Source: Owenia fusiformis | Taxonomy: Eukaryota > Annelida > Polychaeta > Sabellida > Oweniidae | Reading direction: 5' to 3' | Length of the DNA stretch: 64,000 bases | NCBI GenBank assembly: GCA_903813345.2 | Contig: CAIIXF020000001.1 | Location: 23,827,915-23,891,914 of the forward strand | Part shown: in pieces, positions 11,501 through 64,000 of the stretch | Position numbering within the stretch: the first letter of the stretch is position 1 | How the letters are laid out: each line of letters starts with the position of its first letter | Made by a program: the position numbers and the translations under genes | Notes under the pieces: generated by a model | Told to the model about the DNA's origin: nothing | Database searches by the model: none | The model's input: only the letters and a program-made list of their open reading frames with translations

Positions 11501-14500
11501 CCATTGTGATTGTATGTTACAAGTACGTCGTATCAAGCAACATATCTACAAATACTGTAAAAATATCACAGATAACCTGAGAATGGAATATAAGAAATTG
11601 TGGACAAGATCTCTTGATAAGAAGGACAAGACTAAGAAAAGAGAATCGTCAGATAGAACTATAAAGAACAAAGTTGTAACTGATGCAAGGGATATCATAT
11701 CTGTTGATGAAATTGATGAGGAAGGTAGCAAAGAAGCAGGTCAAATTTATGATGGGAAAACAGCTGCTGATCTTGACACCAGTGAAGAGATACATGTCAG
11801 TGAAAATAATGAACAGATCATAAGTGACCTACCTGATACCAATGCAATACATTGTACTGATGTTCAGGAGAAAGATGCTGATATGATTGACATTGAGTCA
11901 ACTACAGAATTTTCTGTTACCTCTGTTGCCCCAAAAAGAATCAAAAGGAGTACCGTTACACAAACCTTGCCATTGAGCACTACTGTTCACTCAAATGAAC
12001 ATAGGTCCGAAAAATGTGAAAAAGTCTCTGATAAGGAGCACAATGTCTGTAAAAGGTATAATACACAGAAAAGAGGAAGACGATTTACACACAGAGTACC
12101 TACTAAAAGGGTAGCTGCTAAATATAGCCTAGGAAATATATTAGGAAACCCTGAAAAGACAGATGGAAATAAAAACATAGTTAAAAGTGTAGAAACATCG
12201 CTTACAACCGTTAGTGAAGAAACTAAAACCTCAGATGATGCTTACAACCAATTAGATGGCAGGCAAGAGATGGTAGGAAAACAGACACTCCAAATACCAG
12301 TTAAATTCCTTGAACCAGGAAACCTTGATAAGAAGGAAGATGAAAATTGCAACAGAATTGAAAGTGAAGAAACATCTTCTCTTTCAACATTAGCACAAGT
12401 ATGTGAAGAAACCGAAACTAGACCTGGTGCTGACAATCAATCAGATAGTGAGAAAAAAATAGTGGGGGAAGAAATTTTTCAAACCTCGAGTAAAGCAATT
12501 GAAGTACAGCCTAATTTGAATCAAAGAAGTGGTAATACTGATGAAGAGAGAACACACACACTACTTGTAATTCCACCTGGCCAAAAAAGGGAAAAACTTA
12601 CAGAAGATGATGTGAGCACATTTGATACTAAAGATGATGCACCTGTGCCAAAGGTGGACCGACATGAAGTACATCTGTTAAATGAAGATAAAATGGCTGT
12701 AATTGAGGGGACTGTTAACTCTGTCAATTCTGCTGAAGAAAACGTAAACAAAAGTAAACAGGACCTATCTGATGATGACAGCATGAAAATTGATGAAATT
12801 AAAGTTCATGGTGCCCAATCTACTAAAAATGAACCAAGCTCTCTTGATGATCAACAGCAGGATGATAGTGTCATATATGTGGACACAGTCAAGAGAAAGG
12901 CACAAGACCAAAACTTATTGAATGAAAGGATGCATACAAAGAGGCCAAGAAGGCTATTGGCTAAGGCTATTGATAGAAACAGAAATGCAAAAACAATAAA
13001 CAGAAAAGGAACATCACTTAGTGCTGATTATCCATCCAAATGTGCATATGTACTCAGGCCAAGGGGTAAGGATGATAAAAAAGCCCAAATCAAAGATTTA
13101 AAGCATCAAGGATCTAAAAGTGTTCAACCCATCTCTAAACCCTTATCATCCTCGTCACCATCACAAAGCCTATCTGCAATACAACAAACATATGACCAAA
13201 GCACATCAAGGCTAGGGAGTTCTGCTGAGCATAATCAGCTTGTAACCAACCAGCAACAGATAAGTGCACAACATACTCACCAAATAAATGTACAACAGCA
13301 AATCGGACACCAAATGAATGCACAGCCAGGACTAGTTCAACTCCCTATTACGAACCCTGTAATAAACAATGTTGATATGAATCCTTACAAGTTGTATAGC
13401 AGAATTCAGCCGAACATGATGATACCCCAACCCTTGTATGGGGGAGCAACAAATGTTCAGCCATCTCTAATAAAGGTACCTAAGAATACCAAAGTTATAG
13501 TTCTGCCCTATGGTAGTAGGATCAGTCCAGCTCACACAACCTCACATGCTACCACATCTATGCCAGGTGTTGTCATGCATATTCCTATACTTGATGCAAA
13601 TACATTTATTCAGCCGCCTCTCCAACAAAAACTTCCAGCTTCTTCAGCAACATCAATGAACATGAGTGAGAATGGATTTCAAAACCAAAATGATATTAAG
13701 TATCCTACTGTGCCTTGTACTGGTGATTGGTCAAATAGTTCAGCTGTTACTTCTTCTGTCTTAGGACAACCAACTGAGCTTGCTCAATCCCTTTCTATAC
13801 CTTGGACTGGGAATGGACTGAATAGTTCAGCTGTTACATCTTCTGCCTTAGGACAACCAACTCAGCTAACACAATCCTTTTCTATACCTTGGGCTGGAGA
13901 TGGACTGAATAGTATAGCTGTTACATCTTCTGCCTTGGGACAACCAACTCAGCTCACACAATCCCTTTCTATACCTTGGACTGGGAATAGACTGAATAGT
14001 TCAGCTGTTACATCTTCTGCCTTAGGACAACCAACTCAGCTCACACAATCCCTTTCTATACCTTGGACTGGGAATGGACTGAATAGTTCAGCTGTTACAT
14101 CTTCTGCCTTGGGACAACCAACTCAGCTCACACAATCCCTTTCTATACCTTGGGCTGGAGATGGACTGAAGAGTTCATCTTCTCACTTAGAGCAACTAGT
14201 TCAACAGACACAGTCCCATCCTATATCTTGGACTGGGGCTGAACGGAATAACATGAACTTTAAAGAATCCTTCTCCTCAGGAATGCCGATGCATCAAGCA
14301 CAGTTCACTGCCATGGCTTGGACTAAAAACGAACAGAACAATTTGAAATCTCCTATGCTAGGGCAACCTGTTCAAACAAAACAGCCCCCATCTGTGCCTT
14401 GGACTGGAAGTTTGATTGACCACCATAAAATATTCGACAACATTTCCATTGCTCAAACATGTCAGAGGACCACAAGTCCAATATATCCTAGCCCCAGCAT

Positions 14501-17500
14501 AAAAGTTACTCCTAAGTCAGCACACTTAAGTACTCTCCTTCCAATGAATGTAATGTCACAGCATTTAGGATTGATGCTGAATAAAGGTTCAGCTCTCAGT
14601 TCGACTGCACCTGTGTTTACACAAGAGCATGCAAAGAGAGGTATGTGGTCACCTGCAGCATTAGATAAAGACTCTTCTATGATAGCACCAGTGCAGACAA
14701 AATCAAACTATGTACATTCCTTGTCTGAATATATTGATGAGGATGTTGATTTGAATCACATCGAGAGAGAAGTGTCACAAATGAAATCAACTGCAAATGT
14801 TATGAAGAATCATACATATACTGAATATACATCATCCCCAGTGGCTGTAGAGAGAGGACAGCCATTACTAAGTCCAATTGACCCAATGATACCCAGGACG
14901 TTGCCAGACTCTCCTCTAAGTGATGTAGATTTGAACAGTCCAAATGTTCAGTACAATCTGCAACCATCAGCCCATCCATCTTTAGCTGAATCTATTTTAG
15001 AGTCTCCCTTGTCTGATTTAGGCCTCACTATTAAACTTTCTAATATATTCCAAAGAGGAAAGGCAGACTGTACACCTGTGATGGATGACAACTTAAACAA
15101 ACCAGACGATGATGTATATAACATTATAGATTTAGACACAAGTATGACAATCAGTCCATGTCATGGTCAACGCCAAGATAACCCAATCATAAAGCCCAAC
15201 AATGAACCAGATGAAGGATTTAAAGTGGATGGACCCCTCCAAGTAAAAATGATATCATCTTGCATGTTTACAAAGTTTATTGTTTAAGTTTAATCATTTA
15301 GAGTTATCTGTTTACTGCACCTGTTTCTCGTTGAGGCAACAAAGTAATTTTCAGCATTACTTTACAAACAGGGATACAAGTGGATATTTCTGCCAACGGA
15401 ATGTGGAGTTCCATCAACACACACTTTTGTTTATCTTTTTGATCTTTGATAGTTGTTTACTGTGTAGCATTAACATTGAATTACATTATATAAAAAAAAC
15501 TAAAAAAAACTAAAAAAAAGAAAATTCAACGTTAATAATAGCACATTTACATGTACATAAAACCTATTGCAGTATTTCCATTGTTCTTCTCATATTTTAT
15601 AATTTATTCATGATAATATATAGAGCTTAGCCACATGAAAATCAACATTAACTTAACTCTGAATTGAGTTAAATTGATCCTCATTTCTTTGAACATTCAA
15701 ATTGTTGCACAAATTATAGCAGTATATTATATTATTTTCTGGTTACATGTAATACACATGTACAGTCATTGATTTTCTTCCTGTGGGTTCGCTTATTTAT
15801 ATACTAACATATTTAGTCTTATTAATTCTATAATATAAATGGCATGTTATGTGTTATAATCTATAACATATATACATGTATGTAGTACGATATAACATAA
15901 GTAAAATATAAATCCTAATGTTCATTGCATTTAACAAATTAAAAAATTTCATAAGAAATACCTTTATCATAATTCAAAACCACTACTGTACATGCCTTCC
16001 CACTTCCATTGCATTTAGTAGAAATTAAAGTCAGTTCAAGTTGCTCAAATTTAGAAATTCATATTGATGATTATTATTTGTATTGTATGTGTATTTATGT
16101 AAAGTTAATGTTTGTTTCAGTCATCCACAGGGTCTTCTACCAGTCAGTCAGATGATGACAACTTGGAGTGGAATGCCCAGGTCACCACAGTTGCACCTCT
16201 TAAACCTCCCTCAGCAAACAAGGGAGAGTCAGACTCATCTTTGGAGCTAGATGACCTTCAGGTGAGAAGACTTTGTTGTTATGTTACTTTCAAGATTACT
16301 TTTTATATCAACTATCCAATGAACAAGGGTTCAACTCATCTAGTCAGGTTGGTAGTAGACTAGATGCAAGTCCAAATAATCCTGATTTAAATCATTAAAT
16401 GGTCAACAATTAGTCAAAGTAATATCATATTTGAAATCTACATATAAGGCTTCATCTAGAAATATGGTTTCAAAAATATTTATTTTCTTAGAAAATATGA
16501 ATTCAAGGTCAGATTTATTCTTAGAGCCCATGTTATGAAATCATGAAAAGTGCTGTTTTATGTCACCACAAGAAGTCATTGGTCTTTTTTCAACTTGCTT
16601 CAAATTTTTTTCAAAATTATCTACAAGTTCTCAAAAAATCTGACTATACATTTGACCTTCAATGGCATTCCCAATGTCAAAAAAGATTTGACCTTCAATG
16701 ACCTTCTCAAGCTCAAAAAGGTCTTTTTTTTCAACTTGCTTCAAATTGACCAATTTTTTCAAGATCATCTACAAGGTCTCAGAAGTTTTAATCTGACTTC
16801 AGATTTGAGATTTTACCTTCAAATTCAAAACTTCAAACTGACCATTTTTTTAAAATCATTGATACAGAGTTCTCAGAAATTCAAATCAGATGCAGACTTA
16901 ACATGTAGACTAATAGCACTGTGAGCAACTAGGTGGTGACATTTTGTCATGTTAATGCCTTGTCTTTTCTTGTATTAGACAGATTCTCTTTTACTGGACC
17001 TATTTTCAATAATACAATTATCAAAGTCAAAATGGTTCTTTGAAAATCGAACCACTCAAACTCAATCTACAGCCTAAATTTTAGGGGTACCCTTTCCGTC
17101 ATTATCCACCTGGTGGTGAAATTGGTAATAATTTCAGTGATTTGTGAATTTGCATGTACATGTAAATGTATTACAGAGTGTTCAGAAAGTATTGGTAATT
17201 TTGCTATAACTTTTGTTTTCTTGCTTTCTTTCTTCATGATATTTTCACAACAAAATAACTAAAATACCAGATTGTGTGGATGAATATGTTTTACAATACT
17301 GTATAACATGAAATACTGCCGTGGATATAAAGTTGCCGATTGCCGAATGTAAAACAGAAACGGCAACATAAAATTCGGAAATATAATTAAGTAATTGAAG
17401 ATCGATCTTAGTGGGCGATAATATGGTGTCTAACATGCGTCAACTTACTGTAATAGGGTAATTTTCTAACGAGTATCAACTTACTATACTTTAACAAAAA

Positions 17501-33500: not shown

Positions 33501-34649
33501 TCAGTGACCATTATCCATATTAAGAAGAGGAAGACAAGATAGGACTACAAAACCAATAAAAATGAAGAGCAGTTTCAGTAGGGGATCTTGATCATTTGAG
33601 ATTTCACCAGGTAAAATCTCTAAGAAAAGGACATACAAGAATGTACCTGCAGCCAGTGCCTCAAAAAGTATTGCGACTAAACTCCCACCAAATCCTTTGA
33701 CTTCCCCTAACCCAATCCCAATAGCTACACCAATAGGGATCATTATTACAAACACTATTGAAAGTTTAATGATCGTTGCTACTCTAAGGTTAGATTTTGC
33801 AAGGTTCATCCCAAGAGCAAATGAAACTAGACTTTCATGAATTAAAATTGCTATAAATAAATTAATTATTTTGGTGAGATCAGTTTGTAGCCCTAGCACC
33901 ATACCTTCAAATATACCATGAATGCTTAATGCTAGGAGCAAAATAAAGCTCCTAAGTCCAGCAGTCCGTGAACCTTCAGGTATTATCATATGGCTATGGC
34001 CGTGACCATTATTATGTCCACTTCTATGACCATGTTCTTTACTGGTATTGCAAGCAACATGACTTGGGTCAGCTGCTTGTTTATGTGTAATCAAACTATT
34101 GTACACCTCCTGATCACTATCATCTCCAGAAGTGGATGATGTTGATGAGGTGGTCACAGCAGAATTATTTGATTTATTCCTGTGTGATTTGATCTTTCTG
34201 GTAATCTCTTTAGGTGTTCTTGAGCTCTTTAATTGTCTTGGCATAGGGCTCTTTGACTTGATTGAGTTTAATTCTAACTCAGCGTCTGTATCACTGTCCA
34301 AGTGACTATATCCATTTTTATTGCATTTCATAACTGCTTTCTCTATGAAGACAACAAGGAAAAACCCTAAAACAACTGCAAATTCAGTTACAGGGTAATC
34401 AATATGTATATCCTCTTTCTTTAAAATGTTATTAAACTTCTCATGTATATTTGGCAAGAGAGCAATGAAGCATGTCCCCAGGAAGACACCACCAGCAAAG
34501 CAGTTGCAAAAGCTGATGATCCTCTCAGACTTGGAGCTTAGGACTCTGTTAGGGTCTCGTGGAATGATCTTGAGGGGCAGTATGCATGCAATGAAGTTCA
34601 CAGCAAGTATGGCCAATGTACAGAGGCCCCTGGCCAATATGGTATCCAT
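33501..34649 (-). CDS. ZIP-family zinc transporter (SLC39A1/2/3-like)
   Basis: One uninterrupted frame encodes 382 residues. I start at ATG 34649, which has a good context (CAACC before, G after); an upstream TTG is not used. A splice acceptor (TTTCCAG) lies at 34707, so a 5' untranslated exon probably lies further upstream. ZIP proteins move Zn(II) into the cytosol. The layout fits: N-terminal helices, a long loop between helices 3 and 4 rich in His (HGHRSGHNNGHGHSH), then helix 4 with HGIFEGMVLG and helix 5 with HESLVSFALG, which carry the conserved metal ligands. The C-terminus has three more hydrophobic segments, about eight in all. The loop also carries a Ser-rich, acidic stretch. Similarity is to the ZIP I/II group, so plasma membrane location is likely. 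Whether it corresponds to vertebrate ZIP1, 2 or 3 cannot be settled here. Confidence 0.93.
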   Translation of the reverse strand: MDTILARGLCTLAILAVNFIACILPLKIIPRDPNRVLSSKSERIISFCNCFAGGVFLGTCFIALLPNIHEKFNNILKKEDIHIDYPVTEFAVVLGFFLVVFIEKAVMKCNKNGYSHLDSDTDAELELNSIKSKSPMPRQLKSSRTPKEITRKIKSHRNKSNNSAVTTSSTSSTSGDDSDQEVYNSLITHKQAADPSHVACNTSKEHGHRSGHNNGHGHSHMIIPEGSRTAGLRSFILLLALSIHGIFEGMVLGLQTDLTKIINLFIAILIHESLVSFALGMNLAKSNLRVATIIKLSIVFVIMIPIGVAIGIGLGEVKGFGGSLVAILFEALAAGTFLYVLFLEILPGEISNDQDPLLKLLFIFIGFVVLSCLPLLNMDNGH

Positions 34650-34709
34650 GGTTGCTGTTAATGGTGTCAAGAAGTTCTTGCGTTACAATGGAAATGTAAA
34701 CCTCGCCTG

Positions 34710-36790: not shown

Positions 36791-38706
36791 TTTTTTTTTT
36801 TAAGGTTATTTTATTTCCATATTTAGGACATGTATAAACATACAATAATACAATATTACATGAATATGGAGAAACAAGCCTACGTTTGCACATTATTGGC
36901 TTGTGAAAATACATTTTATACAGCAGATATTTACACATACAATAGTAGTGTCATTATTTACATAAATGCAGTGTTCAGATGGGATGAAGATGAGTGATGA
37001 TGATATGAAATTTGGCAAGGTACAGTAGCTATGGCACTTCACAATATTTTGTTAATAAAATCTGATGATAGATTTATAAGTGTTGAGTTAAGCTTTGGTG
37101 ATAGTTCTTTATCACCAAATAAAATCATATCAACCTTGTCATATTTACGTTTACTGGAGAAAAGTTTGAGGTCAGGGTCAGCTTGCTGGGAGAGACTTAG
37201 GAGAAATGTTTGTCTTGCATCATGTGTAAGAGGGCAATCAAGCAAATAGTGTACCTTTGTCTGGTTTCGAAACCCACATGGACAACTTGGATCTTGGTAA
37301 TTTACAAAGTTGTGCCGGAAAAAATCAGAGCGCAAAGACAGGTCACATCTCATTCGATTTAGTTTTATTTCCAAAGGTCTCTGGATATTTAAATGGGGTG
37401 TCAAAGCAGAGATCATTTTAGTCTTTTTGAAAAAGTGATTTGCATATGATCTTTTGAACTGTGACTTAGTTTCTTTGTTTTTGATTTGCACTGGGATAGG
37501 TATCCATATTTTAATAGGAGATATTGCAGGCGAATTTAGGAATTTTGATGATGCAGAGGCTGGGATTATATATTGACGTTGAGTTCTTAGTCCTGGTCTA
37601 TAAGCTGGGTTTAAAAGAGGTGTGTATATATCTTGAACATAGGTGGGGACCATTTCTCTGTTGACTTTGAACATTAATATTGCCTTCTTTTCCTGTCTAC
37701 GCTCAAGTAAGGATTTCCATCCCAAGGCTTGTAAAACTTTGTCAAAATTTGATCCGGTGATAGCACCTGAAACTATAAGCGCAGCACGATAGTGAATTCT
37801 ATTGAGCTTTTCAATATGGACTCTTGAGGAGGAGTCAATAAAAGTTGAGCCTTGTTCTAAATGAGGAAGGATAAATGATGTATACATTGTCTCCAAGTGT
37901 TTTGATGAAATTTTTGACTTTAGAAACAGAAGTGGATTGAGCATTTTGCTAGTTTTCAAAACAATGGCATTGATGTGTTCCTCAAAATTTAGATGTTCAT
38001 CAAGAATGATTCCCAGGTGTTTGTGACTATGGACTCTCTGAATTTGGTCATTATTTAAGAAAAGGGGTTGGTAATTTCTTAACTTTGCTCTTGGCTTTTT
38101 AAAGATTACCTCTCTCGTTTTACTAGGCTTAAATTTCATTTTCCATTTATTTGACCACAAATGTATTTTATTTAGATCAGACTGGAGTATATTGTGAGAG
38201 AGTGTAGTATTATCATTATAGGACACTTGAGCATAAATCGAAGTGTCATCAGCATAAATGAAACATGTGGAGTCTAGAATATCTGGAAGGTCATTTATGT
38301 ACATTAGAAAGAAAATCGGTCCAAGAATGGATCCCTGAGGAACTCCAGAGTTTATGTATCCTATTTGAGACCAGATAGAGAAATCTGAGTTTACTTTTGT
38401 TCGTACTCTACGTTCACTTAAGTATGAAGAAAAAAGGTTAATGATATTTTCACCGAAACCATATGATTTTATTTTATGAAGAAGTAGCTCGTGTGGAATT
38501 TTGTCAAACGCAGATTCTATATCTAAAAATAGAGTTCTAACGTCTTTGTTACTTTCAAAAGATGTCATTATATAATTTGTTATACTTAAAAGTTGGTATT
38601 CAACACTATGCCCTGGCAGAAATCCAGATTGGTTTTTAAAGAGTAATTGATTTTCTATTAAGTGTTTAAGCATTTTCTGATGTATTATTCGCTCACATAG
38701 TTTGCC
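36791..38706 (-). mobile_element. 5'-truncated LINE (CR1/jockey-like)
   Basis: A minus-strand retroelement fragment is bounded by an exact 11-bp duplication (CACACAATATT). Its 3' end is a poly(A) run, seen as T's from 36791 on the plus strand. The 5' end is cut inside the reverse transcriptase frame, as is usual for target-primed insertion. The reading frame is open from the truncation to its stop, so the insertion is probably young. Confidence 0.9.
37039..38706 (-). CDS. LINE ORF2 C-terminal part: reverse transcriptase
   Basis: About 555 residues are open from the truncation point, with no stop or frameshift. Reverse transcriptase motifs appear in order: SGFLPGHS, FLDIESAFDKI (motif A, catalytic Asp), SGVPQGSILGP (motif B), and FIYADDTSIY (motif C, YADD catalytic pair). 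The late region has CPCGFRNQTKVHYLLDCP, a C-x-C-x8-H-x4-C type pattern seen near the C-terminus of some jockey/CR1-group LINEs. The endonuclease and the first reverse transcriptase motifs are missing by truncation, and there is no real start codon (the first in-frame GTG lies in the duplication). The piece therefore cannot encode a full-length protein. Clade assignment is from memory of motif style only. Confidence 0.9.
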   Translation of the reverse strand, partial: GKLCERIIHQKMLKHLIENQLLFKNQSGFLPGHSVEYQLLSITNYIMTSFESNKDVRTLFLDIESAFDKIPHELLLHKIKSYGFGENIINLFSSYLSERRVRTKVNSDFSIWSQIGYINSGVPQGSILGPIFFLMYINDLPDILDSTCFIYADDTSIYAQVSYNDNTTLSHNILQSDLNKIHLWSNKWKMKFKPSKTREVIFKKPRAKLRNYQPLFLNNDQIQRVHSHKHLGIILDEHLNFEEHINAIVLKTSKMLNPLLFLKSKISSKHLETMYTSFILPHLEQGSTFIDSSSRVHIEKLNRIHYRAALIVSGAITGSNFDKVLQALGWKSLLERRQEKKAILMFKVNREMVPTYVQDIYTPLLNPAYRPGLRTQRQYIIPASASSKFLNSPAISPIKIWIPIPVQIKNKETKSQFKRSYANHFFKKTKMISALTPHLNIQRPLEIKLNRMRCDLSLRSDFFRHNFVNYQDPSCPCGFRNQTKVHYLLDCPLTHDARQTFLLSLSQQADPDLKLFSSKRKYDKVDMILFGDKELSPKLNSTLINLSSDFINKIL

Positions 38707-38924
38707 CACACAATATTATATTAGATACACTTGTTTTCTGCAATTAAAATATAAAATAGCTACCTAATTTGGACTATTTGGACAGATATTATCTTTCATC
38801 AAAATTCATAGGATAGTCATTCATAGTTATACTGATATTTATCCAGTAATATTTATTTTTCCATTAGCTGAATAATAAGCATGTATTGTTGATTGCATGA
38901 CATCACGTTGTAAATGTACTATGG

Positions 38925-49732: not shown

Positions 49733-50908
49733 GGTGTGAAAGAAATTATGGTCCCCCAGGGATTATGGTCCCCTTTCTTAATGGCCCTTACTGGCCCTGA
49801 TTGTGTATAAGATAATGAGGGAAAGAGTTCAGTTGTATTTTTGTCACCATATAAATCAATGGAGAGTAGGACCATAATATTAAAGGACCTCCTACCCTTT
49901 TACACCGGTACATTCTATAGGAAAATCATGTGCTTTCAACAGTCTCTTGAAAGCCCATGGAACAATGTTTGATTGGATTTTAAAAAACATTGTTTTGAAA
50001 TAGCCAATAAATTCCCTACAGCATATACAGGGTGGGTCAAAACAATACACAATTTGAAGGGAATTTGAAATTAATGTGAATTACGTATATCCAAAACAGA
50101 TCACAACAACGGCTACATGGGTTACACATGGTACTAAAACTCCACGAAACACACGGTACTAAAACTCCATGGTAAACAAGGTACTAATACTCGACAGTAC
50201 ACATGGTGGTACTAATAATCTACACCTGTGGCATGAGAACATAACCAATTATGCGAGAGAGAGAGAGGTACAAGCAAAGTATACGATCAAATTGATTTGG
50301 AAATCATTGCATGCATAAAAATCATGATTTCAGTTGATGATAGATATGCGTCATTTGAGATACAAATTATGTCCTTTTATCAATACTCAAACTGGCATTT
50401 GTTTCGAAGATAAAATAACGAAGGATGAAAACATGAAAACTACTACAAAAATAATATAAATGGATTTGTACAACTGATCAAGAGTAATAATGTCAAATAT
50501 GAAAATCATCCAATGTTCCGAACCCATTAACTGTTAACGTTCGGACGATCAGGTTAGGTTTTGATTTTCCATTCCTTAAATATTCCGAAAACCTAGGTAG
50601 ATCTAACATGAAAAATTCTATTTATTTCTCACATGACGACATTCCTACCCCGGTTGACTTTTATGGGTAGGAAAATAACTTGCTTGAACTAAACTATGCC
50701 CCAAAGTTGATGTCTATGGAACCAACAATTACTGAATCAGGTGTAAAAGGGTAGGAGGTCCTATCAAATTATGGTCCTACTTTCCATTGATTTATATGGT
50801 GACCTATATACAACTCTTTCCCTCATTATCTTATACGCAATCAGGGCCAGTAAGGGCCGTTAAGAAAGGGGACCATAATCCCTGGGGGACCATCATTTCT
50901 TTCACACC
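49733..50908. mobile_element. 1.18-kb element with ~170-bp terminal inverted repeats
   Basis: The left arm (49733-49905) and right arm (50740-50908) are inverted copies with few differences. Both run from GGTGTGAAAGAAAT at the outside to GGTGTAAAAGGGTAGGAGG-type sequence at the inside, and both carry GGACCATAAT repeats. The interior of about 830 bp has no long frame. Within it, 50120-50220 repeats GGTACTAAAACTCCA four or five times. No target duplication is evident. It is probably a non-autonomous DNA transposon. Confidence 0.8.
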
Positions 50909-51564
50909 GGCCATGATAGGTGGCGCTAGTGAAGATTTGATTCAGAGACTAGCTCCTGCCCACTGTTACTGTTTATTTAACAGTTAAAGTGGTATGACCA
51001 TCGTCGAAATCATAGAAGCCGATTCCTTTAATTTTACGCTTTAAAATGATCTTACTTGTATATCCATTCCATTCAGGTAGATTCGGTTTTGAATTTGCGC
51101 ATCTTGAAGTTGAGACCCAGTACAGGCCCGTGGTCGGAAACGATGCCATTTTACTCTAAACCGATGAAAATATATGAACCATGCAAGAAAACAGTGAGTT
51201 TTGAATGCTTCGATAAATCGAGATAAATTAGAAATTTGATGATTGAGGTTGAATTGTTTCAATAAGCGTAATATGCTAAAAACGCAAAATTTATATTCCA
51301 TATTATGAGCAACAGTGTACGAACTCATTCGTCAGACATCGTTTACTATTACATATAAGCTAGCAGTTTGTAGTCGCTGTTTCAAACCAAGAACTAATTA
51401 ATATCAGTATTAACTGCAGCAACCTTTCCATATTCTGCATTAGCAAATCCATTCCGAGCATCATTTCAGCGGAGACACTGCTTCTAATTTGATAAATTCA
51501 TTCAAGGATTTTAAAGACAACTCATGGAACATATACTCGTATTCATCGTCTTTACGAAACTAAA

Positions 51565-54500
51565 ATGACCGACTGGCGGTTTGATTCGAGTCAGCGTTAC
51601 CTCGTGGATGGATTCGACAAGAAAGGTAACTTGTTAAAACGCCAAGGGAGAACGTCGAAAAATGGAGCGCTGTTCATTGACCAAACGTTCCCTGCGGACA
51701 TCAGTTCACTTACTTACGTATATAGCGGAGACGACAAATACGAACGCATGGTGTTTAAACGTCCATTGGTAAGTTTTTGCAATTATATGTGTTTATATAG
51801 TATATATATTCTTACTTTATATGGAAATGAATGTCTAGCTGATAAATGATACATTGATGATCTCTTGTATCTTTCGCGTAATAAGTTATATCTGGTTCAA
51901 CGTGAAATTGATTACGTAAACCTGTATGTTGCCTACGACATTAATGCATTTAGCCATATGTGAAAGACAAGATATTATTTTTACACCGTTAGAGTACGAT
52001 GACTTCAGAGGGTGGATAAGAATATCTACCTTAAGGTATTTCTGATATATTTATGATACTGTACGTACTGTACCCACAGACAGTGTCAAGGTCGTGCATT
52101 ATTGAGACAGTTTATATTCCGAGTTACATCACAAGATTAAAGCATATATTGAAATTGATTAAACATATTGCATGCAGTGTCATGTAGCTCTCAACAGATA
52201 CGACTGATTAATCTAACACATTTTGCTATTTTAATTGACTATCTATATTAAGTGATGATGAACTACTGTGAATTATAATTCATGCATGGAGCACGTTAAT
52301 ATACTAGCACTGCTTGATAATATGTCAGATCAATATGTGAAAATATAAAAAATGAAATACACTAGAATATTGGACAGATGAACAGCATCTATAAATACAA
52401 GGAATTCTCAATTGTTTACTATATATATTTATTAATAATAGTAATGTACGTTAAGCTGTCTGAGTATCTGGCAATCTCATGTCTGAAAAATAGTTAAGAT
52501 TAAATAATTTAATGGGTGTCGATCAGGTTTAAAGGCCCCATATGAAGCTCGTTTTTATGTCTAGTGTGAACTGACGCGTAATAAACACAGTTCACTTCCT
52601 TATTTTGCACAGAGCTCGCTTAATTTGTGCCCTTTGTGCTATTGAGATAAGACAACTTCTTGATAACTATATCTCCAAGTCGGCTTTTTCGTCTGGGATT
52701 GGGTCTGGGAAATTAGAATAACACGTTATTTTCATAACACAGCTGAGCCTCTTATTCAATTTCCACAACTGCTTTATATTTTCTCAATTTTATTTCCATA
52801 CATACAGTATAGTTGTTTGTGGGAATAATATTGATGCCGTATACGGAAAATGTTTCTGCTCACTATACGCAATGCAGTATAAAAGACCAACATGCCCGAA
52901 GTCATATTTCGAATAAAAAAGATCCAGTGAGTAACAATGGCGCGTTTTCTTATCAAAACAAGAACACATATTTTCCTGTTATGACAATTTGCAAAGTTCA
53001 ACGTTCCAGCTACCTTGAGCTCTGTTTAGCGAGATGAGCGTAAGCTGGCTATGATTAAATTTACCCTCAAGCCCCTTAGAATTCCGTAGAATTGACTTTT
53101 GTGCCCGCTTTTGTGTTGCTACTTTATCATGGGACTTTGCCCCTTTGACACTATTTGTGACTTCATGGAACCTTGACACGTCGTTATTGGCTATGCTGTA
53201 ATAAGAGGAGGGAAAGCCCCAGAGATTTACCGATGGCAGACGTACATGTATTACGTCTCTTACGTACCACCTTCGTTTGCGCAAATTTTCACCAGTTAGT
53301 TTTCGAATCTAACGCGTCGTTGTGATCTTTTAATCGATGTAAGCATGTTCCTAACATCTTTCTTTATCTTGATGTGAAATAACAAGCTATGATATTGTTT
53401 AACAAGCCAGAAATTAACATAATATTATTCGAAGCGTTATTAGAAATTTTTTAATCCGCCATTTTTGTTTGTCGTTTTGACCAATCAGAGACGTGGGTCA
53501 TCTCAATACAGGTTTACATTATAAGCGTATGTCATCTTTGAACTCTGGGGTTAATCCCCCTAGATCTTTGCAGTAATGAAGACGGGCATTCCAACGTCAT
53601 TCGCTTGTTTCCAAGTTGTTTTTGCATGATCAGTATTTCTATTTAAAATCGCATCCTACTAACGCAAGTTCAGACATGACAATTTAGATTCAGTTAGCCT
53701 ATCATTCTTTACGAAATCTTTGTCTCTGAAGATAAGTGCTGGAAACTAACAGAACGAGAATTCAATACAAGGTCACACTGGCTTTTGCAGTTGCCGTTGT
53801 CAGAGCATCCAGATAATTTGAGTTTTTAGTTAGTTAATATCGAACAATTACCTAAATATACTTAGTCAGTTAGAATTACTTATAGTTAGTGCGTTGCTAA
53901 ATTACCTTTATGGAGGTGTGTGTACATTGCACAATCATATGTCGCCATGGTAACGAATCTGCAGTCACTTTGTCAGTACCATTTAGTCATTTGATTTTTA
54001 ATTTAAAAGGGGCCAATAAAAAAAACAATTGCAAATGATGCCGCAAATTAAAACTTATTCAAACATGACCAGTAGAGACTCTCATTCCACGGGATTGCAG
54101 CATAGTCGTTCTCTAGATGAACGTAACGTCCGAGTGATATCTTCACCCGGGTGTCTTCATTCAGTGAAGAATTGCCCACAGTCGACAGTGCAATAAGGAA
54201 AAGTACGCGCACTGTGTTGTATAAGCTGCTGAATTTCTTTTACAATATATATATTCTTTTTATATATAAGAGTATATAATTGGGTTCGTGGGCTTAGACC
54301 CCTCTAAGGTGAACTGGTTTTCTTCGCAAGCTCGGCAAATAATTACAAAATGATCTAATGTTCGACATTCGCACTGATGGGCGTCTTCACTTCATCTCGA
54401 GCCTTCTTCATTATCCATTTCCGTGTCACGGAAATGGCAATGACCTCGAGCTTTCCTAATCATTATTTACATCTTATATTCCAATAATACTAATCCACGA

Positions 54501-57500
54501 AACTAATTAATCACTATAATTTTTTATCTTAGTGACAGTATGGTTTTAGACCTATTAGAGCAAATAGAAAAGCGGAATACCGATATTCTAACCTCTCTAC
54601 TTCAAACAACAATGTACATGCTGCTAGATATATCATGGAGGTCCATGATATATCGGAACAGTCAAGCACTTTAGCAAGTTATTTTGAGACAGGAAATATT
54701 CAGGAATAAAGACTCTTTGAATTCTTTGATTTCAGAATGATATCAATCATCTACATACAGCTTATTCCTTATGAGTTCCTTGCCAAGCCTGAATCTAAGT
54801 GTAACTGATATCATGAGACATTACATAGAATTTCTTTTTAGCATACCTATTTACGTCGATAATTATGTAATATTATGAGTCTTCGAGATCCACTTTCAAT
54901 CATCATTTGTCATATCTCGATATGAATGAGTATTTAATTTGAGACCTGCTGGATGGTAATAAGATGGCGGGATTGCATCTGATAACTTGATAACGATTTA
55001 TGTGAAACAAAAGTAGCCAATCATTTTGATTTATCTGACCCCTTCTGTTGTTTCTCTTCGGGGGCGTGGCAAACCACAATGATAGCCAACAGTCTTGCTT
55101 CAAGACAGTTTACCCCCTGTATTATGCCCCCCCCCCCAGATCCGCCACTGGGGGGAAGGAGGGCAGTCTTGAGGCAAGACTAGATAGCCAATTCTGATTA
55201 TACAAATCGTCCCATTATTTCCACGTTGTTACAATTGCATTTTTGCTGACATTGAGAAATCAGAGGTCATTGAGTCATTTTTAAAAACCTATTTTTTCGA
55301 GATCGTCCCATTATTTCCACAATGTTATTACTATTAGTCAAGATCAAAATTATGTATCTGATTGGTTCTGCTGCCTACCCGAACGGATATGACAAGGTGG
55401 GTCTAATTTTTTTCCTCATTTTGAACTGATGTGGCACTGGATCCATTTAAATGGACGTCAGAAATGAATTCCTCGTGAAAAATTGAGAAAGATAGTATAC
55501 TTATCTCAAAACCTGTAAAAAGTGAGTTATAACAATGTCAGGCACCCTGTCTGATCAACTTATTAGGGCCTCATGTCACATTTAACTGATCTTGAAGTTG
55601 TCGCATTAAACCAACTGACGTTGTTCGTAAATGGGTCTCATAGCTGTCACAATATGTCCACCGATGACGTACGTAAAAAAATCTGTCACATTAGGGCAAA
55701 TAGCGCCGTGTGTAACCTGTAGTCTTATTCAAAGCTGTTATAAACCAGGTACACCTAAAATATTATATAAGTAAATAGAATGATCGTGCAATATCGACAA
55801 TAAAAGTCGAGACGGAAAAGGTATTCAGTGTGTCAGTTGGAGACCTTTGAAGACATTGCTTGGAGTGCTTTATCCTGGTATGCTTTCTAGTGATTAATTA
55901 AATACAACGACGATGACAGAGATACGTCATTGAAGACAAAAACAAGAGATCGCCTTAAAAGTGAAGGTCTTCGCTGTCCAAAAGTACCATCAATAGCTTT
56001 GTCCTCAGTGTTTAAAAACATGATAATCATCGAAAAACGTCAATATGTCAGTAATACGTCTGTGCTTTATCCTCGGTATATGCTTGTTCTAGTGATGAAC
56101 AAAATGCGACGGCGATGACGTAATTTGAGACACAAACAAGATATCACCTTAAAATGGAGGTCTCACTGTCTATAATAACTATCATCAAGGCTTTAACATG
56201 ACAAAATGTCACCACCTAGTTGCTCATAATATTATGAGTTCAATCTGAAGTCGGATTTGAACTTCTGAGAACTTGTAGATGATTTTGAAAAAATCTGGTC
56301 AATTTATTACCTTGAGAGAAGGCCAGTGAAGGTCAAATCTCAAATTTAAAGTCAGATTTGAACTTTTGAGAACTTGTAGATGATTTTGAAAAAAATTCTC
56401 AATTAGGAGCAAGTTGAAAAAATACCCTTTTGACCTTTTTTGACCTTGAGAAGGTCATTGAAGGTCAAATCTAAAGTCAGATTTGAACCTCTGAGAACTT
56501 GAAAAATGAAGTTATTGGAAGTTTTAATAATATGTCACCACTTTTATGTAATCAGTGCTAAATGCATAATAATTGTCTAAATACTTCCAAGATACATTTT
56601 TTGTCCAACGAACACACTTATCCGTGTCAAACCTAGTATCATCGGGCGTTGCACACAGTATATTAGCTTTAGCTAGGTGATTACTATCCCTTGATTCAGA
56701 TTTGTATTCTAGTACTCATCACATTTTGCAAACACAAAATGCTCAGTTATATTCTCTATTTTATCAATCGAAAAAGAAGTTACCACATGGCAAACAATAG
56801 TTTACTTTGCTGTCGGTTATGTATGTGTGTATGTTCCAGTAAATATGTTAACACTAGCTATCTTTTCTAGCATACTTTTTGGAGGCATAATGATATCTAT
56901 AATTGTATTTCTTGCTTCATTCAATTCATATAAATTGTAATATATTTTTATATTATACAACTTTTGATTTTAGCACTGATATGCCCTTTTATGGGTATCA
57001 AGTGCCAACACTGCTAATGCAATACTAAATGAATATGATAATAAATAAATTAAAAAAAACAAAAAAAAATCTAATGTGGGGCTTTCCGAAAGTAATTTTA
57101 GATGCAATCTCAAATGTCTTGGTCTGTTTAATCCCCATGAACATAGCATTTTTGTCCATGATCCATGTAGTTCTAGATTGAAACGTATCTTGTTACAATA
57201 TTTTACACATAATTTGTCAAATTAAATGTCAATATCATCATAATATGGTCATGAGAGTCATCCTTCTAGATAATCGATGTGTTTTAAGCCAACTTGGCTA
57301 TCCGTTAACAATTCCGTAACATTTTGCCCATAGCGTATTACTGATAGCTTAAATAGCTCATTGGTTATCATCCTGATTGATGACTCCAAAACAAATAGCA
57401 ATCACATGTATAAATCGTAATGACCATAATGTAATTTCCAAGATGATTGCATTTTTATATCACAACAAATAAAATGTATAAACTTTTTATAATTTCATCA

Positions 57501-60500
57501 AACCAAGCATGGGCTTTCTAGTTGAAAGCCCATGAACCAAGCAAAGAATATCCAATACAATATGGTATATTGGCTAATAGTGTACGCACACATTTTCAAG
57601 GTTTATCACATATAGCAATTTCTTTATTTCTAAATTAATCAGAGATTCTCTGTTGGATAAAATGTACGATGCGTATTAGAATTGCGTTAACAATGTACAT
57701 GTATACTTTAACTTCTCATTTTCTTCCAGGAAATCGACGAAGACGCGCAATTTAATGGTATAGATGGTACGATGAAAGTGTCATTGCCATGGCAACAGTG
57801 GAACGAGAGATTCTGGCTCCTATACGCCATAACAATCACTTCTCTCAATGCTAGATTTCTAGAAAAGGCTATTCCTGGCTACGGGAGCTTCAGACAGAGT
57901 TTTCAAAGGGATGTTTATACAGGTATTGTACTATACAGATAATGTATAGAGTGAATCAGGAATTTTACTGATTCAAAGTTTATTATTCATGATTGGTCTC
58001 AAACTTTCTGAGATGACTAAGAATTGATGCAAGTTTTGTTCCATATCAGTCGTTTTTCTATGCATCGTGTTCAGGTGGCGGCCAATCAAATCATCATGTT
58101 CATTTTAGTTTGAGACCAGTCATGCCAATAATAAAAAAATATGAGTTATTGCACTTTAAAATCAATAACATTTTTTGGCCCAGCCTGTATATTCAGCAAT
58201 GTCTATTATTCACAACGATATCGTGAACTCATAATAGTGATAGTGATACTTTGGTTCTTTGCTAAAATGACTGTACAGTGAAAAATATCATTATCATTGT
58301 TGAAATATCATAGCTGTCTTATGTACCCTACTGCATATCGCGAAGTGCATATCGCGAAGTGAATAATCCTTCTATGAATTTTGTAACTGCTAAACCTTTA
58401 GGGATATATTGGGAAATGCATAACCTGTAATAAATACTTACAGGTGACGTTGATTATCAAAAGGTATATATGCGATCGGATTGCTGTATTTTAATGAGGC
58501 ATTACAGGTTACAAAAATAATGAAAACATTATACATGAATATATTATAGCGCGTTGGGGTGAATGGGGGTGCGTTGATGGTGAATCAGGGCATTTGGCCT
58601 ATAAACACATGTCTTTTATATAATTCTATGTATTTATAATCTAGGTAAATTCCAATTCAAAATTTGGCGGTTTGGCGACTGGGAAGATATCATAGTTGAC
58701 GATCAGATTCCAACACTTGACGATGAACCTGCCTATTGTCCGGCACTGGGAGAATACAAAGAATATTGGCCATCACTTTTGGAAAAGGCGTATGCAAAGT
58801 AAGAAAATTCGCTAATTCGCTTCCATTTCGAATGTTCAGGAAAATTTTACCAACAGTGTCACGATTTAAGAGTACATTCTCCATTTTATAAATCTCTATG
58901 TTTTTTGTAAAAAAAACACCACTCGGTCCACTGTAAAATTTGTGTTTTTTTGTTTTAAATCCCTACCTCCCTATACATCCATTGTTAATCCCTAACACTA
59001 CGTAAACATGTATGTTTTTACTTTTTAATCCCCACTACTTAAATCGTTTGTTTTAGATTTTAAATCACGAGGAAATTTTTCAATATGTGATCCATATTAC
59101 ACATGCTTAATGGGATCTTCATTGTATCAACAATACGCTATGGGTTAACCCAACTAATTAATTGTTATAACATGCGTATTCCCATACAAACGATCTGTCT
59201 TCCAGAGAAAACTAAGATTTGTGGACATATTTTGCTATCATTCCATCATACCCCAGTATGTCCTCTGTCAGTCAAAAAAGTTTGAATCAAAACTCCCCCC
59301 GAAAATCAAAAGATCTCACCTGTTGAAGACGCCATCTATAGAAAATGTCAAAAAATGTCATTCTGATTTTGACAGATGGAGGCAGGTCAAAAAGGTCACA
59401 TATACTTTTTCATTCATGTACTTACCAAAATCCAACCACTGGTGATGCTAATGTAATGACAATAATTGGACTATATTTTTGTTTTTGTAATGCCGTCTAT
59501 CCTTCCCACTCGGCGGAAGGATCAATAGGTTGTGTGTCTCCTATTATATTTTTGATTGGCACAGGATGTAACGCGCCTGCAAATTAACCCTGCAAATTAA
59601 TGATTGTCATCATAACCGATGATCTATAGGAACACCAAGTAAATGATTATATATTTGGTTTCCCCTGATGGTATGTGAGGAAAGGGGTAGTACGGAATAT
59701 AGATCCAAGCTAAACTACAATTGCCAATGTAAACATGTACATGACCAAAATTCCAAAACAAAAAATCAATTATCGGTGAGGTTATGATCTTTTTTATCGA
59801 AAATAACAATGATATTTTACATCAATGTAATTTTAGGTGTTTCAAAGCCTATGAAGTCCTTGAGCTAGGCAACCCTCTAAATGCAGTAACAGACTTTACT
59901 GGTGCAATTTGTGAGATGTTCAGAATCGATCAGCTGAAGAACGAAGACCTTTTTCACCTGCTGCATAAGTCTTGTATTAACAGGTAAGGCTAATGACCTA
60001 GGACTGTCACGGTTTTTACACGTATTATCGATGACGTCCTTGGTATTATGTATAAATCAAGTTGCTCGTTCGCGCTGTTGACGTGATTTCGATGTCATGT
60101 CATCCTCATTGGCGTCATGTGTCTTGGGACCTGGTTAAATGTATATCATGCATGTCACGTTTTTTATCTATTGTTGGATGTTTTGCACCGGATTCAGCAC
60201 TTGGTTTCCATGGTAATGAATGTTTTAATATCCTGTCACATAAGTATGTTTCATATGGGAATAACGTTACCTCAGTATTTAAGAACTTAGAACATCTTCA
60301 CTATCTAATTGTGTTTATAATTAGACGAAATAATATCACTTATCACGTCACCTTCGTGTGCACTGCAGGTTACCTGGTAATCAATGACATTATCAGATGT
60401 GAATTGATATCATCTTGATTCACAAGGTTTCAGTTACTCCAACTTTATTGTTACATGAAGATGGATATTATCCTGTTTCATTATTTATGAGCATGTGGTA

Positions 60501-63500
60501 GTATAATTGTCATAGGCTGGTACATCTACCTGATCCTACTGATTTAGAACCTAGTTCATTATTTGTGAATGTTCTAGCTTACGAGAGTGATATAACTTTC
60601 CCAAATACACAGCAGAAATTAAAACGGAATGCCAGATCAATGACCAAGTGTTTCTATGGTTATGCTCAAGATACCATTTTTCAGATCTATGATAACGTGC
60701 TGGAGAAAGATATCAAAGCCTTCCCAAGACGGTGTAGAAATCCTAGCAACACCATCCAGAGTTGTTCCCATAGTAACTAAATTGTCAAATCAGAGCGGTA
60801 CAGATGACAACCAGAGAGGTCATCTTCACATTATAACGTCTGCCGCTAAGGTATCTAAGAAAAAATTGATTCTGGAAAATATAAAGCACTGATAAAGAAA
60901 CAATGCTCAATTTTACATATGTTTTATATACTGCCACTATCAGAGAAAGTACAAATATAGTACAATGTATAACTTTATAAAAATAGTAGTCAGTGAAGTG
61001 TTAAACAATAGCTATGGCCAAAAATATAAATTCTCTATAGAAGGTATAGGAGAAATGCAAGACATATCACACTTTAGGAAAACATATGTATCAAGAGAAT
61101 AAGGAATATTTATGAGCTATACCAACAGAAAATGATGTTGGATATACAGTTCCAATTATGCTTATTGTCTCTTTGTTTTTCAGTTTCCACTGAAGGATGG
61201 ATGTGTTAAGCACATGCTCCGGATTAAGAACCCCTATGCAAAATATGTGAAGCTGCAGTCAAACTTTTCTGACAGGTAAGGTTATACTTTCTTTGTTAAA
61301 GGTAAATGCACATTGAAATTTGAACTTCTAATACCCGTCGATAGAAAAACTAGTCACTAAACTTTTTACCAAAATGGCTACAACATTGTACACACGTTAG
61401 GTTTTAAAACTGTATAATATAATGAGTCTAATCGTCTACAATTGTATCCAATTGAATCTTAAATATTAGGATAAGAATGAATAAATGAAGCATGTGCTTA
61501 TGATTAACATTTTACCACCCTGAAAAGTTAAGAACCCAAATCTAGGAGCAATGATTTTAAAAGCTGAAAACGATCCGTATACTTTTGTTTAATCAAGGCG
61601 TTCCACTGTTTATAGTAATAACTGTGCTTGGAGCAACTTTGACAAGGATTTCATGAGGAAGTATGACCCGCTTGGAAGTAAAGACATCAATGAGTGCTGG
61701 ATGTCATTGGAAGACTTCTATTGTCAGTTTGATGGTATTGTATTGTGTAGTTCGACTGAACCGTTTAAAGATGGGAGATATACTCAAGAGCGAAGAGTTC
61801 GAGATACAAACACTGACCTATATGAAACAGATTCTGAGGGATTTGGATGTGTAGTCGAAGACAATAATCGCCACTTTAAAGGGCACTATACAATCGCCCA
61901 GGAGAATCCAGTAAGTTCCAGGCGGGAAAATATACAAAGACTTGCTCACGTTAAACATTGCTGGACACAGCGTAGACAATCGTCAAGTGATTTTACAGCT
62001 GTCGGTCATGAGCACACCGCCAAGAGAGCAGTTGGCGCTGCGCACATACCACAAATGTTACGAATCAGTATGGACGATTCAATGACTAATGTATGTCAAA
62101 CACCGCCCACTCCGAATAAACAGTGCCTATCACAAGGCCACTCACTTTCCTCCTTTTCCTTTGGGGGTTCAGCACAAAACCTCTTAGCTAAAGGAGAGTC
62201 TAAACATTCCGTTGGTAGTGCTCAAAGTGTTTCTCACATCTTCATGTCTTTTACCCAAAGCCCAAAATTACAGGATCAACGAGATCATAACTCGGATGCT
62301 GCGTTTAATGACCTTCACAGTATGGAGGACACATTGAATCATACTCCACAGAGGAGGCATTCTCGACCTTGCCTAAGGCCAGTCAAGAAGGAGGAACTCT
62401 CAGAAAAGGAGCTCAAGTATAAATGTAATTCTACCTTATTTGAGTCCAGAATGGACCATTTCACTTCACACGGAAGCTGGAAACAACTTCTGTTTCACAA
62501 AGGGGAATGGGGAAATACAGGTTGGTATTTTTCACTTATCTGCAATGATGGAGATGTTTATCATGTGTGATATTGTTTTAAAAAATATATATAGTTTTTA
62601 TGTGCTTCAAGTATCTCCCCGAGTATTTCAAGTAAGATTCCCAAAAATACAACCCAATTTCTCCGAACGATTGTCAACATGCCTCTTATAAATGAACCGA
62701 TCACCCATTGTGTATCTTACTCTTTATTTTTATGAATTAACATCATGCTCTGCTTTAAGATACACCACACGAATGTAAAATGGGAAGATTCGAGAGAAGC
62801 TGTCGCATTCTTTTGACTTTATCTAAACCAGACGAAGCACCTAGCGGCAAGACAATATCACCAAGAGTCCATTCTGCTAAAACCCATACTATCATCTCCT
62901 TAATGCAAGACTATAGTCAAGGCAGTCGAATTGTCAACACATTTGTCTCCAAGATTGGATTTGAAGTCTATAGAGTAAGTTTTTTGCCTCATACATCCCT
63001 CTCCATCTCTGTCCCTTCATCTGCGATGCACATTGATTGATGCTACGGACATCAGAATGTTTATAAATTTACACTTTATTACAGCGGTTCAACCAAGTTA
63101 TCTCACTACTCGGGGGAAACCCCATCTTCGTTTACTCGGCTCCCGTCGATGAACGCAGTGAAGACCGAGCGTGCGAAGATGGGGAAACCCATTGAGTTGT
63201 ACTTTAAAAACACTTTAAATCAATAGTACCCAGGGCAGAAGTCACGAATGTTTAATTCCCTTTTTAATTATACACATATAATATATATGATTAATAATCT
63301 TCAATCACATTTACACAAACTTCAAAGTATTTTTATTTGGCCCACATCTCATTTACTTCTTTAAACATGAAGATCATTTGACAAAATTGTCTAATTGAAC
63401 TTGTCCATTATTGAAAGAAATATGAAGGACGATTAAAATAAAAATTGAATAGGGGTCAAAGAAAATATTTTGAAGTTTATCCTGTTTAGAAATTATAAAA

Positions 63501-63836
63501 AGTATTCAGAAACGAAAAGGATTATTAGGAAAATAGAATCACACCACCAGTTCTGTTCTGGCTACTACTAGCTACTGCAATCTGAATTCAACCATTCATT
63601 TTACACAGATTCACAACCCAGTAAAAGATGAAAAGAAAACTCTCCAGAAACTTCATATGGTTGCCGAAAAGACCTCACAACACGAGGAGAGAGAAGTGAC
63701 TCTACGTTTAAACCTTGATCCTGGTAGTTATTTTATTGTACCATATATCAAGGGAGGCTCTAAGAAAGGCCGGTTCTTGTTGAGGGTGCTTGGGGATAGC
63801 GACCACAGCAGTTCATTGGTGCAGAATGGATGGTAA
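51565..63836 (+). CDS. Calpain-family protein with catalytic Cys replaced by Phe
   Basis: Nine exons: 51565-51768, 57730-57922, 58645-58798, 59837-59983, 60685-60850, 61184-61275, 61616-62520, 62760-62974 and 63609 to TAA at 63834. They give 767 residues, all junctions in phase. Calpains are cytosolic Ca-activated cysteine proteases. The order is conserved: an N-terminal FPADISSL and FKRP block, protease core 1, core 2, and the C2-like CBSW domain ending LDPGSYFIVP and RFLLRVLG. In core 1, where active calpains have GDCWLL, this protein has ERFWLL, so residue 96 is Phe. The oxyanion Gln (Q90), His (H279, RGHLHI) and Asn (N304, KNPY) are kept. Loss of the nucleophile predicts a non-proteolytic role, as in calpain-6. 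A linker of about 220 residues sits between core 2 (WMSLEDF) and CBSW. The stop codon overlaps a possible splice donor (TG|GTAAAT), so another domain may follow. No EF-hand domain is seen. Confidence 0.9.
55865..56196. repeat. Diverged tandem duplication, ~197-bp spacing
   Basis: GTGCTTTATCC starts at 55865 and again at 56062. Both copies continue with GTAT, a TCTAGTGAT block, CGATGAC, ACAAACAAGA-like words and a GGTCT block ending near ATCA-GCTTT. The copies differ at many sites, so the duplication is older than those at 28.8 and 33.0 kb. Confidence 0.7.
56188..56545 (-). repeat. Dispersed repeat A, copy 3 (inverted, short)
   Basis: On the plus strand it starts TTAACATGACAAAATGTCAC, followed by CACCTAGTTGCTCA, then blocks of AAGGTCAAATCT and TTGAACTTCTGAGAACTTG, and ends ATGTCACCACTTTTATG. 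It is the reverse complement of the elements at 16.6 and 26.1 kb, here in calpain intron 1. Confidence 0.75.
56940..57070 (+). mobile_element. Possible retroelement 3' end with A-rich tail
   Basis: Sequence ending in TGATAATAAATAAATT and an A-rich run near 57050-57070 could be the tail of a short interspersed or truncated long element on the plus strand. No target duplication or family was recognised, so this is tentative. Confidence 0.25.
63119..63198. repeat. Small hairpin around CCCCATCTTCG
   Basis: CCCCATCTTCG near 63120 and its complement CGAAGATGGGG near 63175 flank a CTCGGCTCCCGTCG loop. It lies in the last recognised calpain intron (62975-63608). It may be the core of a decayed fold-back element. 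Confidence 0.45.
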
Positions 63837-64000
63837 ATATGAGTTTTAGCTATTTGAAAACATGTTTGAGATATCTGATCAGATATGGACGATTTTGAAG
63901 ATTTAACATGCAAAATTGGCCAAACTCACTGGCTATAGAAAGATATGTCCATCTTTTCAAACGTATTGCCACAATCGAAGAATTTTCATGGTGACATGTC

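Follow-up and report, generated by a model that had tools for sequence, protein, structure and literature searches.

A calpain gene of Owenia fusiformis with phenylalanine at the position of the catalytic cysteine

Gene model and domain architecture

The window, that is, the whole 64-kb stretch of DNA that was analysed, carries a calpain gene on the + strand at its 3′ end (51565–63836). Its nine exons code for a protein of 767 amino acids with no internal stop, and all eight introns are of the GT-AG type; the sequence-only reading had described a frame intact over nine exons, and it is indeed open throughout.

Exon 1 (51565–51768) encodes Met1 to Leu68, the start of the protease core (GALFIDQTFP ... 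FKRPL). Exon 2 (57730–57922, flanked by AG and GT), whose translation starts with EIDEDAQFNGIDGTMKVSLPWQQWNERFWLLYAI..., carries the former catalytic loop LPWQQWNERFWLL, in which the codon TTC at 57811–57813 encodes Phe96. It is followed by exon 3 (58645–58798), which contains conserved core sequence (WRFGDW..IIVDDQIPT ... LLEKAYAK), and by exon 4 (59837–59983), which codes for the end of PC1 (YEVLELGN..DFTGA). Exons 5 (60685–60850) and 6 (61184–61275) belong to PC2 and contain His279 (CAT, 60821–60823) and Asn304 (AAC, 61229–61231), respectively; in exon 6 the NPWG motif has become NPYA. Exon 7 (61616–62520) spans the end of PC2, an insert of about 250 residues (about 61764–62440) and the start of the C2L domain (calpain domain III), which continues in exon 8 (62760–62974) and ends in exon 9 (63609–63836), where the frame closes with TGG TAA. 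The last bases of exon 9 include a GT (63833) that might be used as a donor instead, leading to further exons of the calpain gene.

A spliced aligner run over positions 50001–64000 of the window, with a stretch of a mu-like calpain as the query, recovered the donor of exon 1, both borders of exons 2 to 4, the acceptor and donor of exon 5 and the donor of exon 6. It departed from the model by introducing one spurious intron (60764–60814) and by placing the acceptors of exons 6 and 7 further inside these exons, thereby skipping inserted residues. Exon 7 sits in a frame of 325 amino acids, longer than the longest frame found in 100 first-order Markov windows (maximum 200, mean 134), and therefore this frame is not due to chance.

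Searches against Pfam give a match to Peptidase_C2 (PF00648) over residues 37–364, which covers the profile from position 1 to 297 of 297 (E 1.4e-51), and a match to Calpain_III (C2L) over residues 629–752 (E 6e-14). The 19 PDB sequences found at E ≤ 0.01 are all calpains, the best being a mu-like calpain (3e-41) and calpain-1 (7.6e-41). The order of domains is thus protease core, insert, C2L and an in-frame stop. In a 254-residue stretch of the insert there is no Pfam match at E ≤ 1; compared with the core, the insert is richer in disorder-promoting residues (50 versus 43%) and poorer in order-promoting residues (27 versus 40%), in a 260-residue slice that includes the start of C2L. According to Pfam, the 767-residue model has no second C2 domain. 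A search of the open frames of L009 (10 kb from position 23891400 of C1, reaching about 9.6 kb past the stop) for an EF-hand gave none, by a scan which is weak, as it found the EF-hand in one of two control stretches; a stricter pattern, used first, gave no match in any of nine stretches. A tandem repeat of about 64 bp, seen by eye, lies downstream of the calpain gene (L009:4700–5040).

The rest of the window contains a 2420-aa open frame on the + strand (8025–15284) with two tandem arrays whose unit lengths are divisible by three (93/189 bp at 10650–11181 and 87 bp at 13734–14177), and for which Pfam returns only a match below the cut-off (TPR_Rlf, E 0.0009). On the − strand, a 393-aa frame matches the ZIP zinc transporters (33504–34682; PF02535, E 2.1e-58), and another, of 558 aa, codes for a reverse transcriptase (37042–38715; RVT_1, E 6.6e-28), which probably comes from a LINE-type element.

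The former active site

We aligned the window calpain with 13 other calpain genes of the genome and six calpains from the PDB, using MAFFT; the window gene is represented by a single sequence. The column of the catalytic cysteine holds Phe96, and those of the histidine and the asparagine hold H279 and N304. The predicted protein has no cysteine in residues 1–163, so that no other placement of gaps can restore the nucleophile, which confirms the earlier proposal that Phe replaces the catalytic Cys at residue 96. The same reading had taken Q90 as the oxyanion glutamine and H279 and N304 as the other two catalytic residues. The last two assignments hold, while that of Q90 depends on the alignment: the glutamine is Q90 if six residues are counted back from F96, and MAFFT sets a one-residue insertion beside F96 and has W89 in the Gln column.

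The changes extend beyond the nucleophile. The active-site loop is altered at many positions and has gained one residue, and the Trp of NPW is replaced by Tyr. Regarding the Ca2+ sites, compared here with the ligand list in section 11 of PMC4631099, site 1 keeps the Ile, the Gly and Glu175, and Asp96 is replaced by Ser; site 2 keeps Asp299 and Glu323, Glu292 is replaced by Lys and Gln319 by Ser, the latter in a variable column. The motifs DD..P, W..LLEKAYAK, TG and GH are all kept.

These losses do not follow the pattern expected of uniform decay, since they are clustered in the loops of the active site and the Ca2+ sites, and 28 of the 37 other near-invariant positions are kept. We considered 57 columns as near-invariant (93% or more conserved, with at least 12 of the 17 Cys-bearing rows filled), 36 of which are kept in the window calpain. 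With a partition between loops and the rest that was chosen after the alignment had been seen, the window calpain has lost 12 of the 20 loop positions and 9 of the 37 others (Fisher p 0.011). A second Cys-less calpain of the genome, L023, described below, keeps 32 of the 57 columns (one of its losses is a gap) and behaves in the same way (14/20 versus 11/37, p 0.005). We controlled for this by leaving out one Cys-bearing row at a time: L016 and L022, the two that diverge most, have lost 2/20 and 1/21 positions in the loops versus 10/42 and 11/42 elsewhere, respectively, and the remaining 15 have lost between 0 and 2 positions in each class. Such a pattern fits a protein that gave up catalysis but kept its fold better than it fits decay throughout.

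Another hypothesis is that splicing of a different exon 2, with the Cys loop, lets the gene yield an active isoform as well, in which case Phe96 would merely reflect the choice of splice sites. In its favor, the intron that precedes exon 2 is 6 kb long. Yet, a scan of the 64-kb window in six frames with no limit on length found no Cys-loop motif, although it could miss a motif that an intron interrupts (as the one at column 71 does in L010, L018 and L020). A looser scan, of frames of at least 25 codons, returned only the F96 exon on the + strand, and one unrelated frame on the − strand.

The comparison of introns leads to the same answer. Five of the six core introns match those of Cys-bearing paralogues in column and phase (39/0, 120/1, 179/2, 300/0 and 342/2). 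All five are present in the L014+L015 model, and four in L013, which lacks 300/0; the latter is also found in L010. It is important to note that L014+L015 is one joined model and that, should it consist of two genes, the match at 300/0 would depend on L010, and the one at 342/2 on L013 together with seven other loci. The remaining core intron, 237/2, is only seen in the window gene. In both L013 and L014+L015, the stretch from 39/0 to 120/1 is a single exon which bears the cysteine, so that exon 2 of the window gene, with the same borders and phases, is its counterpart. As far as can be judged from sequence, neither the motif scans, nor the introns, nor the alignment reveal another exon with GDCWLL or an aligned Cys, and the existence of a hidden active isoform is extremely improbable.

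Other calpains of the genome and the lineage of the gene

A search of the genome with the PF00648 profile gives at least 56 exon-level matches at E ≤ 0.001, all of them on contigs C1–C12; those counted belong to the window gene and to 13 further genes, every one of which was modelled. The catalytic Cys, His and Asn are all kept in 12 of these 13. The exception is L023 (L023:2567–4420, − strand), a stop-to-stop frame of 617 aa with a Peptidase_C2 match (E 5.5e-37), in which Cys is replaced by Ser, His by Leu and Asn by Ser. The spliced aligner placed an intron in L023, which the single open frame does not need. From its first Met, this frame starts with MGCNNS, which we take to be an acylation-like motif. 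Among 25 scored candidates in the genome, there is no close paralogue or second copy of the window calpain: the matches outside the window gene, down to E 0.03, are 26–50% identical, and the identity of the window calpain to the other 19 rows of the alignment is between 17 and 35%.

The window calpain, L016 and L023 form long branches in the tree. The terminal branch of the window calpain amounts to 4.11 changes per column; its placement is not starred and its sister is not resolved. Measured by path, it is closest to calpain-3, -9, -1, L018 and calpain-8, and in the best tree the window calpain groups with the classical calpains (support 71/83, not starred). Grouping it with the calpain-5-like rows, with L016 or with L022+L023 is not rejected (AU p 0.17, 0.191 and 0.198, respectively). 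Regarding introns, the one at column 120 in phase 1 is common to the window gene, L013, L014+L015, L019 and L020, and the window gene lacks the intron at column 97 in phase 0 that is found in L011, L012, L017 and L021. This intron pattern argues against membership of the calpain-5/-6 (TRA) family, and the window calpain is probably of classical lineage.

The loss of the cysteine had been suggested to be possibly independent. In relation to L023 this is likely: grouping the window calpain with L023 alone is rejected (AU p 0.0169, without correction for the four tests, made after the tree had been seen), and the clade formed by L022, which bears the Cys, and L023 is starred (100/97). Two separate losses of Cys in this genome, one in the window calpain and one in L023, would be the likelier reading of a tree in which both branches are long.

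Calpains without the catalytic cysteine

Inactive calpains are on record from many eukaryotes. In section 10 of PMC4631099, 29 out of 267 homologues are classed as non-peptidase, and the Cys is said to be missing from calpamodulin, androglobin and C. elegans clp-3. According to PMC3315469, where 1234 proteins with a calpain domain are aligned, 344 have an incomplete triad after removal of fragments and splice variants, and such calpains occur in plants, animals, fungi and protists. Our literature search gave no paper that joins calpain with Owenia fusiformis and none that combines the phylogeny and the catalytic triad of the annelid calpain gene family; a search on catalytically inactive calpains as pseudoproteases gave none on the subject, judging by titles.

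A close parallel is mammalian calpain-6 (calpamodulin), which likewise has its Cys replaced and is described in PMC6823460 as a non-proteolytic protein that binds and stabilises microtubules. The two differ in that calpain-6 has Lys where the window calpain has Phe, and in that the window calpain keeps His279, whereas section 10 of PMC4631099 reports that the His is also replaced in calpamodulin. Besides, the window gene and the calpain-5-like genes of the same genome have different intron patterns, calpain-6 itself being known here by description; a further difference is that the window model lacks a second C2 domain.

Drosophila calpain C, of the Classical family C, is also an animal calpain predicted to be inactive (PMC5650170). 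Section 10 of PMC4631099 gives changes of its His and Asn and does not list it among the Cys-less proteins; the lophotrochozoan members of family C presented in PMC5650170 all retain the triad, unlike the window calpain. The catalytic Cys is missing from the C. elegans cluster of clp-8 and clpr-1 to clpr-4 (PMC3315469) and from clp-3 (PMC4631099, section 10), as far as their descriptions allow a comparison, but these are nematode atypical calpains. Last, the Aplysia proteins AplTrunc1-3 consist, as described in PMC5650170, of a catalytic domain and C2L only, like the window model, from which they differ in that the window calpain lacks the Cys and has about 250 residues between PC2 and C2L.

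We consider, with a probability of about 0.8, that the locus holds an animal calpain gene of intact structure and probably of classical lineage, the product of which is no longer a peptidase: the catalytic loop has been rebuilt, and so have the NPWG gate and, in part, the two Ca2+ sites, while the motifs of the fold are kept. The best description of the predicted protein would be a fast-evolving, truncated pseudo-calpain, made of a protease core and C2L, with an insert of about 250 residues. That it lacks peptidase activity is nearly certain.

The sequence-only reading had proposed an expressed pseudo-protease with a structural or regulatory role; of this, the absence of the catalytic Cys from an otherwise intact gene is well supported, and expression and such a role are putative. 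Phe instead of the cutting Cys in an intact-looking gene makes a binding or scaffold role probable. The predicted protein would fold as a calpain core followed by C2L and, its nucleophile being gone, would be unable to cleave; it would then act by binding, through contacts made by C2L, the insert or the altered cleft. The partners may be microtubules, membranes or proteins, as reported for calpain-6, and by analogy with the latter the chances that the mechanism takes this calpain-6-like form are about even. Against this, the catalytic His and Asn are retained, which a protein without peptidase activity would not need.

A different role, which we regard as rather unlikely, is that of a dominant-negative or decoy calpain; instead of serving as a cytoskeletal scaffold, it would bind to the substrates of active paralogues, or to their inhibitors or partners. 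The conserved core motifs outside the loops would suit such a protein, and twelve Cys-bearing paralogue models are present in the genome, but the gate beside the cleft, NPWG, is changed to NPYA.

The gene could also be a young pseudogene, disused and yet to accumulate stops and frameshifts. The very long branch, which could also mean relaxed constraint, and the free change of the active-site loop are what one would then observe. However, 767 codons and eight introns have stayed intact despite the many changes of the loop and the residue it has gained, and the clustering of the losses also speaks against disuse, although it would be compatible with a decay that began only recently. We find this explanation improbable, and a functional gene very probable.

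Going further than the inactive calpain that we favor, we tentatively propose, as a conjecture that is more likely wrong than right, that a truncated classical calpain lost its nucleophile and its Ca2+ gating, and then gained the insert between PC2 and C2L, thereby becoming a dedicated adaptor, and that L023, with its acylation-like start, would be a second, independent case with a different targeting.

The general picture is unchanged by this gene, because inactive calpains have already been reported across eukaryotes (PMC3315469). It is nevertheless a well-defined case of the loss of an enzyme with retention of the gene structure, and having paralogues with and without the Cys in the same genome offers a clean contrast, in which the scaffold is kept and the catalytic and Ca2+ loops are lost. 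The gene would help explore the function of a calpain fold that has no proteolytic activity.
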